From: Deinococcales bacterium | GTDB taxonomy: Bacteria > Deinococcota > Deinococci > Deinococcales > Trueperaceae | NCBI GenBank assembly: GCA_012515535.1 | Contig: JAAYYF010000090.1 | Coordinates: forward strand, 1-55,481 | DNA length: 55,481 nt | Direction of reading: 5' to 3' | Part shown: one piece after another, positions 32,142 to 35,357 of the stretch | Numbering within the stretch: position 1 is the first letter of the stretch | How the letters are laid out: each line of letters begins with the position of its first letter | The notes under the pieces: generated by a model | Databases searched by the model: none | The model's input: the letters and a program-made list of their open reading frames with translations, nothing else | What the model was told of the DNA's origin: nothing | Position numbers and translations under genes: made by a program

Positions 32142-32885
32142 ATGTCCACCACCAAGCCCCGTCCCGTCGTGCTGGTCAGCACCGGCATCAGCGCCCGCAC
32201 CACCGGCCTCTACCGCGAGGACTCGCTCACGGGCCGCAACTACTCGCAGGCGGTGGTCGCCGCCGGGGGCCTGCCGCTGATGGTGGCGGTCCTCGACCCG
32301 GCGCTGGCCGACGCCTACGTGGAGCAGGCCGACGCGCTGGTCCTCACCGGCGGCGCCGACGTCGACCCGGCGTTGTTCGGCGCCACCCCCGACCGGCGGC
32401 TGGGCTCGGTCGACGAGCGCCGCGACGCCTTCGAGATCGCCCTCTACCGCGCCTTCCGCGCCGCCGGCAAGCCGGTGCTGGGGGTGTGCCGCGGCCACCA
32501 GGTGATCAACGTGGCCGAGGGCGGCACCCTGCACCAGCATCTGCCCGCGGTGGAGGGCAGCTGGCAGCACGACCAGCGCGACCTGCGCGGGGCTCCGCTG
32601 CACCCGGTGCGCCTGGAGGCCGGCAGCCGCCTGGCGCGGGCGTTCGGCCGCCTCGACGTCCGCACCAACAGCTACCACCACCAGGCGGTCGACGAGGTGG
32701 GCGCCGGCCTCGTGGTGGTGGCGCGCACCGGCGACGGCGTGGTCGAGGCCATCGAGTCCGAGCGCGGCAGCTTCGTGCTGGGCGTGCAGTGGCACCCGGA
32801 GATGGCGTTCAAGGAGTTCCCCGAGCAGCGCGCGCCCTTCGACCTGCTGCTGGCGGCGACGCGGCGCCCCGAGGCGGTGGCCTGA
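32142..32885 (+). CDS. Class-I glutamine amidotransferase / gamma-glutamyl hydrolase (PuuD-like)
   Basis: A 247-residue peptidase C26 family protein. The nucleophile Cys lies in GKPVLGVCRGHQVINVAEGG and the His-Glu pair in LGVQWHPEMAF. DALVLTGGADVDPALFGA and RTNSYHHQAVDEVG are family segments. PuuD cleaves gamma-glutamyl-GABA in putrescine degradation, while relatives cut other gamma-glutamyl amides. No putrescine genes are nearby, so the exact substrate is open. It is predicted to be leaderless and stands alone between purA and the aromatic operon. Confidence 0.9.
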   Translation: MSTTKPRPVVLVSTGISARTTGLYREDSLTGRNYSQAVVAAGGLPLMVAVLDPALADAYVEQADALVLTGGADVDPALFGATPDRRLGSVDERRDAFEIALYRAFRAAGKPVLGVCRGHQVINVAEGGTLHQHLPAVEGSWQHDQRDLRGAPLHPVRLEAGSRLARAFGRLDVRTNSYHHQAVDEVGAGLVVVARTGDGVVEAIESERGSFVLGVQWHPEMAFKEFPEQRAPFDLLLAATRRPEAVA

Positions 32886-32886
32886 G

Positions 32887-32925
32887 CCCGAGCGCCGTTC
32901 GGCGACGTCGCGCGGGAGGCTCGGG
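32887..32925 (+). terminator. Possible hairpin after the amidotransferase gene
   Basis: CCCGAGC and GCTCGGG (7 bp) enclose a smaller CGCCG/CGGCG hairpin just past the stop codon. It is weaker than the other hairpins here and lacks a T-run. Confidence 0.35.
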
Positions 32926-32944
32926 GCCGCGTCCGGCAGGCCGG

Positions 32945-32972
32945 TTGACCGCCGGCCGCGGTCTGGTAGACT
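32945..32972 (+). promoter_or_regulatory. Promoter of the aroF-tyrA operon
   Basis: TTGACC (32945-32950) and TAGACT (32967-32972) are separated by 16 nt, the best -35/-10 pair in the window. An ATG follows 7 nt later at 32980, the expected transcript start. Confidence 0.75.
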
Positions 32973-32979
32973 CTCGCCC

Positions 32980-33105
32980 ATGACTCGACCGCGATCGGGA
33001 GGTGGTGCCGTGGACGATGGCTATGGCTATCGCAGCGCCGTCCTACGCCTGGCCCGGGCCCTCCCCCTGACCTACGCAGGTCCCGCGGTCGCGGACCCGG
33101 CCTAG
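32980..33105 (+). CDS. Putative leaderless leader peptide of the aroF-tyrA operon
   Basis: A 41-codon ORF starts at the predicted 5' end of the mRNA. An internal GTG at 33010 in the same frame has a strong ribosome site (GGGAGGTGGT), so the frame could be entered twice. It contains GGC TAT GGC TAT at 33019-33030 and a third Tyr codon, TAC, at 33073. TAT is hardly used elsewhere in the window. From 33069 on, four segments alternate: GACCT (69-73), AGGTCC (78-83), GCGGACC (91-97) and GGTCC (109-113). They can pair 1:2, 2:3 or 3:4. The stop TAG lies in the loop of the 3:4 hairpin. The next genes make tyrosine. This fits a regulatory leader peptide. Confidence 0.5.
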   Translation: MTRPRSGGGAVDDGYGYRSAVLRLARALPLTYAGPAVADPA

Positions 33106-33113
33106 GCCGGTCC
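33069..33113 (+). promoter_or_regulatory. Alternating hairpins in the aroF-tyrA leader
   Basis: Three mutually exclusive stems can form: 33069-33073 with 33078-33082 (5 bp), 33079-33086 with 33091-33097 (7 bp, one bulge), and 33093-33097 with 33109-33113 extended inward by three more pairs. The last part of the leader (33151-33210) is C-rich (34 C, 12 G, 11 A, 3 T) and lacks a T-run, so termination here would have to be Rho-dependent. Chance pairing is a real risk at this GC content. Confidence 0.4.
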
Positions 33114-33210
33114 ACCCAGGGCTCGCACCGGCGCCGCGCGACCGCCGCGCCCGCACCCGAGCCGCCCCTCCCCTGCCCACCGGAGCAGAACCACCCCCAG
33201 GAGCACCCCT

Positions 33211-34242
33211 ATGGTCATCGTCATGGCCAAGCACGCCCCGCGTGACGCCGTCGAGCGCGTCGTCAGCGAGGTCACCAGCTTGGGCTTCACCCCCCACCTC
33301 AGCGAGGGCGAGTCGCGCACGCTCGTCGGCGCCATCGGCCCCGCCCCGACCGAGGAGCTGCGCGAGCGGCTCGCCGCGCTGCCGTCGGTCGACACGGTCG
33401 TGCGCATCACCAAGCCGTACAAGCTCGCCTCGCGCGAGTTCCGCCGCGACGACTCGTTCGTGGTCATCGGCGGCGCCGGCTCCACGCCCGTCAAGACCGG
33501 CAACGGCCGCTTCGTGGTGGCCGCCGGCCCCTGCGGCGTCGAGGGGCGCGAGCAGCTGATGGACGCCGCCGCCATCGTGCAGCGCCACGGCGGCGCGGTG
33601 CTGCGCGGCGGCGCCTACAAGCCGCGCACCAGCCCGTACGCCTTCCAGGGGCTGCAGGAGGAGGGGCTCGAGCTGCTCGAGGAGGCGCGCGCCGCCACCG
33701 GCATGCCCATCGTCACCGAGGTCACCGCCCCCGAGCTGGTCGAGAAGGTCGCGGCCAGCGCCGACATGCTGCAGATCGGCGCGCGCAACAGCCAGAACTT
33801 CGCGCTGCTGGCCGAGGTCGGCAAGAGCGGCAAGCCGGTGCTGTTCAAGCGCGGCATGTCGACCTCGATCGCCGAGTTCCTGCAGGCCGCCGAGTACGTG
33901 CTGAGCCAGGGCAACCCCAACGTGATCCTGTGCGAGCGCGGCATCCGCACCTTCGAGACCGCCACGCGTTTCACCCTCGACGTGGGTGCCGTGCCGGTGC
34001 TCAAGGAGCTGTCGCACCTGCCGGTGTGGGTCGACCCGAGCCACGCCGCCGGCCGCCGCGCGCTGGTGCCGGCGCTGGCGCTGGCCAGCGCCGCGGCGGG
34101 CGCCGACGGGCTCATCGTCGAGGTGCACCCCCGGCCCGAGGAGGCCAAGTCGGACGCCGCCCAGCAGCTCGACGACGCCGAGTTCGGACAGCTGATGGCG
34201 AGCCTCGGCCAGGTGGTCGCCGCCCTCGGCAAGCGGCTCTAG
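33211..34242 (+). CDS. aroF: 3-deoxy-7-phosphoheptulonate synthase (type I beta, with ferredoxin-like domain)
   Basis: A 343-residue DAHP synthase, the first step of aromatic amino acid synthesis. Residues 1-70 form the ferredoxin-like regulatory domain (MVIVMAKHAPRDAVERVV, then VVRITKPYKLASREF), as in the Thermotoga enzyme, where this domain confers feedback inhibition by tyrosine. The barrel shows GRFVVAAGPCGVEGREQLMD, LRGGAYKPRTSPYAFQGLQE, IGARNSQNFALLAEVGKSGK, VLFKRGMSTSIAEFLQAAEY, ILCERGIRTFE and WVDPSHAAGRRALVPALALA with metal and phosphoenolpyruvate ligands. tyrA follows after 8 bases. The gene name aroF is used for the family. Confidence 0.95.
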   Translation: MVIVMAKHAPRDAVERVVSEVTSLGFTPHLSEGESRTLVGAIGPAPTEELRERLAALPSVDTVVRITKPYKLASREFRRDDSFVVIGGAGSTPVKTGNGRFVVAAGPCGVEGREQLMDAAAIVQRHGGAVLRGGAYKPRTSPYAFQGLQEEGLELLEEARAATGMPIVTEVTAPELVEKVAASADMLQIGARNSQNFALLAEVGKSGKPVLFKRGMSTSIAEFLQAAEYVLSQGNPNVILCERGIRTFETATRFTLDVGAVPVLKELSHLPVWVDPSHAAGRRALVPALALASAAAGADGLIVEVHPRPEEAKSDAAQQLDDAEFGQLMASLGQVVAALGKRL

Positions 34243-34250
34243 GGCCGCGC

Positions 34251-35357
34251 GTGCGGCCCGCGCCCCTGGTCGGCACGCTGGTGGTGGCCGGCGTCGGCCT
34301 CATCGGCGGCTCCGTGGCGCTCGGCGCCCGGCAGCGCTTCCTGGCCGAGCGCGTGATCGGCCTCGACCGCGACCCGGCGGTGCTCGACGCCGCGCGCGGC
34401 CTGGGCGCCATCGACGAGGCGCAGCTGGCGCCGGGCCCGTGGCTGGCCGACGCCGACCTGGTGGTGCTGGCCACGCCGGGCCACGCGCTGGTGCCCACCG
34501 GCCTAGCGCTGAAGGAGCACCTGCGCGAGGACGCCGTCGTCACCGACGTGGGCGGCGTGAAGGCGCCGGTGGTGGCGGGCCTGCGCGAGCTACGCTTCGT
34601 GGGCGGCCACCCGATGGCCGGCAGCGAGCGCGGCGGGGTGCTGCACGCCGAGGCGGCGCTGCTCGAGAACGCGGTGTGGGTGCTGACGCCCGAGGCGGGC
34701 ACCGATCCGGCGGCGCTGGAGCGCGTGCGCGGCCTGGTGGCGGCGCTCGGGGCGCGGCCCATCGAGGTGGCGCCCGCGCAGCACGACCGCCTGGTGGCCA
34801 CCGTGAGCCACCTCCCCTACCTGGCGTCGGTGGCGCTGACCGCGCTGGTGGCCGAGGGCGAGGAGAGCGGCCTGAAGATGCTGCTGGCGGCCGGCGGCTT
34901 CCGCGACCTCACGCGCGTGGCCAGCGGCGACCCGTTGATGAGCCGCGACATGGTGGCCGGCAACCGCGCCGCCGTGAAGCAGGCGCTGGCCGGCTACCGC
35001 GCGCAGCTCGAGCGCCTGGAGCGGCTGCTCGACGACCCCGAGGCGCTGCTGGCCGCCGGCGAGCGCGCGCGCCTGACGCGCGACTCGATCCCCATCGTGC
35101 GCCGCGGCCTGCTGCCCGCCCGCTTCGAGGTGGTGATCGCCGTGCCCGACCGGCCGGGCGAGCTCGCGCGCATCACCCACGCCCTGGGCGAGGCGGGCGT
35201 GAACGTCAAGGACATCGAGGTGCTCGGCGTGCGCGAGGCGGGCGGCGCGATCCGCCTGGCGTTCGAGGACGCCGACGAGCAGGAGCGCGGCACGGCGGCG
35301 CTGCGCGCGGCGGGCTACGAGGCGCGCGGGCGCAACAACGGCGCGGTGGGGCGTTGA
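34251..35357 (+). CDS. tyrA: Prephenate dehydrogenase with C-terminal ACT domain
   Basis: A 368-residue enzyme that oxidises prephenate to 4-hydroxyphenylpyruvate, the precursor of tyrosine. The NAD fold has LVVAGVGLIGGSVALGARQR. Diagnostic segments are VTDVGGVKAPVVAGL, FVGGHPMAGSERGGVLHAEA, ENAVWVLTPEAGTD and the active-site His in ATVSHLPYLASVALTALV. A C-terminal ACT domain (from FEVVIAVPDRPGELARITHA) should bind an amino acid, most likely tyrosine, as feedback. The GTG start 8 bases after aroF has no clear ribosome site, so translation is probably coupled. Confidence 0.95.
   Translation: MRPAPLVGTLVVAGVGLIGGSVALGARQRFLAERVIGLDRDPAVLDAARGLGAIDEAQLAPGPWLADADLVVLATPGHALVPTGLALKEHLREDAVVTDVGGVKAPVVAGLRELRFVGGHPMAGSERGGVLHAEAALLENAVWVLTPEAGTDPAALERVRGLVAALGARPIEVAPAQHDRLVATVSHLPYLASVALTALVAEGEESGLKMLLAAGGFRDLTRVASGDPLMSRDMVAGNRAAVKQALAGYRAQLERLERLLDDPEALLAAGERARLTRDSIPIVRRGLLPARFEVVIAVPDRPGELARITHALGEAGVNVKDIEVLGVREAGGAIRLAFEDADEQERGTAALRAAGYEARGRNNGAVGR

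Follow-up and report, generated by a model that had tools for sequence, protein, structure and literature searches.

The window, i.e. the whole 55,481-nucleotide stretch of DNA analysed here, corresponds to contig 43 in a draft genome of 2.47 Mb, a Trueperaceae MAG. It carries aroF and tyrA, preceded by a promoter and a short leader open reading frame (Table 1). The N-terminal regulatory domain of the DAHP synthase and the ACT domain of the prephenate dehydrogenase, both named in a preliminary description of the locus made from the DNA sequence, are confirmed by domain matches. The nearest solved relatives of the aroF product are the 4grs, 1rzm/3pg9 and 1vr6 chains. In each relative checked, tyrA follows aroF.

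Table 1. Features of the aroF-tyrA leader region in the window.
Feature	Position	Strand	Remarks
Promoter TTGACC-16-TAGACT	32945..32972	+	extended -10 (TG before it); transcript start predicted at or next to the ATG
Leader ORF from leaderless ATG, MTRPRSGGGAVDDGYGYRSAVLRLARALPLTYAGPAVADPA	32980..33105	+	41 codons; stop TAG at 33103-33105
P1 5' strand CGACCGCG	32986..32993	+	possible long-range hairpin; the predicted fold joins it to 33084-33091
Shine-Dalgarno (SD) GGGAGGTGG of the internal start	32997..33005	+	near-perfect; conserved, part of the searched motif
Core GTG GAC GAT GGC TAT GGC TAT (V-D-D-G-Y-G-Y)	33010..33030	+	putative control TATs at 33022-33024 and 33028-33030
Third Tyr codon TAC	33073..33075	+	seen in the sequence; absent in relatives, not conserved
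P1 3' strand CGCGGTCG	33084..33091	+	possible hairpin; 3' half of the peptide pairing with the ATG-SD region
C-rich, G-poor untranslated gap	33106..33196	+	candidate Rho loading region; no terminator
aroF, DAHP synthase	33211..34242	+	PF00793; PF18152, N-terminal ferredoxin-like regulatory domain
tyrA, prephenate dehydrogenase with ACT domain	34239..35357	+	PF02153, PF20463, PF01842

Promoter, in-frame starts and tyrosine codons

The promoter had been proposed to place the ATG at the 5' end of the transcript, and the promoter itself is confirmed. It is the sole promoter-like site in 32850-33260 (shuffled sequences give 0.0 +/- 0.1), and 7 nt separate its -10 from the ATG. Similar spacing recurs in relatives, where 23 of 24 leaders have 6-7 nt and G040 has 10 nt. 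Promoters of the relatives have TTGACA/G with a TANNNT -10, and a good -35 is absent in G001, G016 and G030. Leaderless mRNA is common in this phylum. Placement of the -10 near the ORF is the documented pattern of leaderless genes in Deinococcota (PMC12340547).

All elements first described within the 41-codon frame are present, i.e. an internal GTG with a strong ribosome site, the sequence GGC TAT GGC TAT and a later TAC. The GTG lies 30 nt past the ATG and in frame with it. Across the relatives, ATG and internal start share a frame with no intervening stop in 25 of 26 leaders, the exception being G001 (28 nt), and the two are usually 30 nt apart, with 33, 39, 45, 51 or 123 nt in others. A parsimony count gives six changes of length, of which five preserve the frame against an expectation of one-third (p ~0.02, with independence assumed). 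The leader start is best read as dual and in frame, with a leaderless ATG and an SD-driven GTG. Given the shared frame and the leaderless-type -10 spacing, translation could enter by either start, and both routes would read the Tyr codons.

Conservation is confined to the SD and the first seven codons (M/V-D/E-D/E-G-Y-x-Y), and the remaining peptide drifts. Pairwise identity between genera is 0.67 over the SD (-15..-7) and 0.73-0.80 over the core, and falls to ~0.3 on both sides of the block from SD to codon 7. The claim that TAT is very rare locally is borne out, as it accounts for 2 of 317 Tyr codons in the 34 gene-like frames of the window; GAT accounts for 12 of 700 Asp codons in the same frames. 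Leaders prefer TAT; in 24 of them, codons 1-12 include 57 Tyr codons, and 46 of these are TAT. Because TAT is so rare in the window's genes, the chance of finding it at both conserved Tyr places is ~4e-5 under local codon usage. The GGC TAT GGC TAT pair of the preliminary description is conserved but the TAC that it also counted is absent in relatives; the presumptive control codons that are conserved are thus the two Tyr codons that closely follow the GTG.

Distribution among relatives

The search for related leaders covered 111 genomes of the phylum, apparently without Deinococcaceae. Family labels used here are f1 for Trueperaceae, f4 for Thermaceae (including Calidithermus roseus, G088) and f3 for a second family with the leader. 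An aroF ortholog at E <= 1e-95 was found in 79 of the 111 genomes. In the Trueperaceae genomes G007, G011-G014, G017, G023, G025, G028, G031 and G034, both this ortholog and the leader pattern are absent; just a more distant DAHP synthase is retained there, and none was found in G014.

Among the 22 Trueperaceae genomes with enough sequence upstream of aroF, 13 have a leader of the type (M/V)(D/E)DGY(G/D)Y, with the variant MDGDVYGY in G008. All 11 genomes of f3 have a leader (M/V-E/D-D/E-G-Y-P-G-Y and similar), a single Tyr being kept in two. A short ORF with Tyr codons and an SD before aroF-tyrA, one mark of classical attenuators, is therefore conserved in 24 genomes. The phylum was searched with a degenerate 27-base pattern, GGNGGN7RTGGANGANGGNTAY, in which the second Tyr is optional. 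It matched once each in 26 genomes, of which 23 matches lie before aroF, two before tyrS (g2) and one is a stray in Thermus. The G008 leader was missed by this pattern, and the reversed control pattern had no match in any of the 111 genomes.

The leader is dispensable, which counts against the sensor reading, because four Trueperaceae keep aroF-tyrA without it and five use a one-Tyr leader. The four (g16; L014, L015, L016, L018) retain the -10 and aroF-tyrA. In L018 (G036), the block from just past the ATG through the SD and Tyr codons is gone relative to G030, resembling an internal deletion. The five (g11 and g14; L019, L021, L022, L023, L024) have a different leader starting from a leaderless ATG. 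This replacement leader has one conserved Tyr (TAT) in an arginine-rich context, RRYPR or RRYTR.

The two g2 genomes lack such an aroF, and in them the module precedes tyrS as a -10, an ATG, 39 in-frame nt, an SD and ATG GAC GAT GGC TAT GG(C/T) TAT. Occurrence of the module before both a tyrosine biosynthesis operon and tyrS is the best evidence that it would read tyrosine supply. Another form of leader is seen in f5, where L212 and L213 (G054, G050) encode peptides from a leaderless ATG, MSQLNNRYYSPMTFLV and MFSQLHTKRYSPRANV, upstream of tyrS and followed by a hairpin and T-run. These are apparent classical tyrosine attenuators, whose sequence is unlike the window's module.

Sensing and readout

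The leader very probably acts as a cis-acting tyrosine sensor before aroF-tyrA. Transcription would begin at or beside the ATG, and ribosomes would enter leaderless there or through the SD 30 nt further on. They would then reach the two TAT codons, which are codons 5 and 7 when counted from the SD-driven start. A scarcity of charged tRNA-Tyr is expected to stall the ribosome at these codons and to raise expression of aroF-tyrA.

The readout of such a sensor is less readily assigned. An absent T-run and a C-rich stretch after the leader had been noted before, and both observations stand. No intrinsic terminator (hairpin plus T-run) lies between leader and aroF in the window, and the excess of C over G in the gap from leader stop to aroF is +0.29, above all 30 control upstream regions (mean 0.00, sd 0.09). 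All relatives measured likewise have more C than G in this gap, by a slim margin in G021 and G008. The gap folds like its shuffles (z -0.81 in the window; mean z -0.4 in relatives). Rho and RNase J are both encoded in the genome. From the C bias of the gap, the presence of the Rho and RNase J genes and the lack of a consistent change in access to the aroF ribosome site described below, the readouts can be ordered for this genome as Rho termination, then message protection, then translation control.

The earlier suggestion of Rho as the terminator is thus plausible (C-rich gap, no T-run, Rho encoded) but unproven, and action of Rho in the C-rich gap is put forward tentatively as the likeliest of the readouts in this genome. 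Ribosomes that finish the leader may leave the gap open to Rho, with termination before aroF, and a stalled ribosome may alter that outcome. Stalling at codon 5 would leave the gap exposed, so that a Rho switch would depend on some alternative RNA structure. A conserved alternative pairing of the gap between leader and aroF was looked for and none was found. The gap in f3 is 30-42 nt or the leader overlaps the gene, with a C-rich stretch of ~24 nt, which leaves too little room for a Rho site upstream of the gene.

Several pairings within the leader were considered. The whole leader folds with z +0.4 to +0.6 in the window species. In the long-range hairpin P1, all 24 duplexes beat the mean of their own shuffles (mean z -1.8), and a strand-swap covariation test gives z -5.2 over 19 lineages versus -1.3 for a control strand. 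In Trueperaceae alone the values are -2.3 and -1.9, and another scoring agrees. A conserved P1 is not claimed for the window species, as the Trueperaceae signal is scarcely above control and support is confined to f3. Complementarity between leader GACGATGGCTAT and the aroF start AUGGUCAUCGUC, noticed by eye in g1, was set aside; it is not kept in G021 or f3, and both sides are largely codon-fixed. Comparison with relatives, proposed at the outset as a check, shows frame and Tyr codons to be conserved; covariation of a stem is not above control in Trueperaceae.

It is conceivable, though somewhat doubtful, that the dual-start Tyr cassette acts on its downstream gene, be it aroF-tyrA or tyrS, by way of the condition of the 5' end, e.g. 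through ribosome protection from decay, with neither a terminator nor sequestration of the ribosome-binding site. A more specific version, in which a stalled ribosome close to the 5' end and helped by the strong SD shields the mRNA from the 5' exonuclease RNase J so that message stability is read out, is rather unlikely. In most leaders ~40-50 nt separate the stall site from the 5' end of the transcript, the nuclease is encoded in the genome, and neither a terminator nor a particular gap is required, which would suit both families and the tyrS copies; against this, the distance reaches ~135 nt in G030.

Control of aroF translation by the same Tyr sensor, in which the stalled ribosome would open a hairpin masking the aroF ribosome site, is improbable. 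In nearly all relatives other than G040, a stalled ribosome has little effect on the predicted cost of opening this site, and the effect has no consistent direction. The leader of G040 (L030/L164) runs into aroF and has its stop 13 nt within that gene. Pairing of AUGCG at the leader 5' end with CGCAU at the start of aroF could there conceal the SD and start codon of the gene. Placing a ribosome on the first Tyr codon lowers the modelled opening cost from 24 to 17.8 kcal/mol in this case. By the folding model, translational control looks likely in G040 alone among the relatives, and sequestration of the aroF ribosome site was rejected outside it, as no consistent fall in opening energy was obtained.

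The preliminary description had favoured four segments at 33069-33113 pairing 1:2, 2:3 or 3:4. A classical attenuator built from them, with a terminator hairpin lacking a U-run, is very improbable. One hairpin enclosing the stop codon is possible at 33093-33113, and a true terminator follows the leader in the sister family Thermaceae, but the segments fold like shuffled sequence (z = -0.61, with 50 of 200 shuffles folding equally well), as does the gap, and there is no T-run. Neither peptide nor RNA at 33069-33113 is conserved, even within the genus, and the conserved, mutually exclusive antiterminator pairing of a classical attenuator is absent. That the frame is a chance ORF, conserved on account of a promoter or of a site in the DNA or RNA where a protein binds, is barely credible, for although the conserved block is short (~36 nt) and conserved at third codon positions too, the frame survives length changes, and the Asp/Glu and GTG/ATG swaps, the repeated Tyr and the tyrS copies all speak against it.

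The Thermaceae leader and known systems

Upstream of aroF in Thermaceae, all 41 genomes read have an aromatic leader peptide of the FGFYYP or GYFYWP type, in the same position as the Trueperaceae leader. The peptide starts from a leaderless ATG and reads MRTLGRYFGFYYPAGGALRSA and variants in Thermus, whereas Meiothermus and Calidithermus have GYFYWP forms. A leaderless start alone is evident in this family. Between leader and aroF, the sequences inspected contain a hairpin, e.g. GGGCGCCCCC-AAAA-GGGGGCGCCC, followed by a T-rich stretch, and aroF is followed by tyrA in the one genome checked. By sequence and folding, pairing is possible between the 5' end and the last part of the leader ORF and, in the Thermus sequences inspected, between the peptide segment GGGGGCGCCC and the terminator's first arm. 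The strand-swap test gave no signal on the Thermaceae version, probably because the sequences are too alike. By anatomy, the Thermaceae aroF leader is a classical attenuator. Such leaders (e.g. L142, L127) are apparently undescribed attenuators of the Phe/Tyr type in Thermus and the Phe/Tyr/Trp type in Meiothermus.

Classical leader-peptide attenuators include trpL, pheL and hisL. The window leader resembles these and the Thermaceae aroF leader in being a short ORF with codons for the end product before biosynthetic genes. The Trueperaceae form differs from classical attenuators in that it has no intrinsic terminator or antiterminator, addresses tyrosine alone and has two in-frame starts, one of them leaderless. 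The Tyr T-box riboswitch, found at tyrS and aromatic genes of Firmicutes, shares target genes and signal (charged tRNA-Tyr) with the window leader. It binds tRNA directly, whereas the window leader has no Rfam match at gathering score, the T-box covariance model included. No Rfam family covers either the window's leader or the Thermaceae aroF leader.

Other leader ORFs provide partial parallels. The uORFC-13-1 motif is a uORF before aroF in Acholeplasma that is predicted to sense an aromatic amino acid (PMC8632094). It is alike in position and role but differs in having a phenylalanine codon and a terminator, and in belonging to another phylum (PMC8632094). The Rho-dependent leader-ORF attenuators mgtL and speF are known from enterobacteria (PMC5021804, PMC6386406). 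Their likeness to the window leader is that translation of a leader ORF is tied to Rho and not to a U-run terminator alone. They respond to another signal, and the window leader has no detectable alternative structure controlling a rut site.

The sensing part is well supported on comparative grounds, i.e. the window leader appears to be a real, conserved and tyrosine-specific leader peptide. The original proposal of a tyrosine-responsive leader peptide before aroF-tyrA has gained strong support, with conservation in two families and a tyrS module in a third lineage. The papers searched contained no earlier report of a tyrosine-dedicated leader peptide or of aromatic attenuation in Deinococcota. 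Together, the terminator attenuator of Thermaceae, the terminator-free leaders of Trueperaceae and f3, the loss of the leader and the module before tyrS form a natural series within one order. This series permits testing of how an attenuator persists without a terminator and of what leaderless initiation adds.
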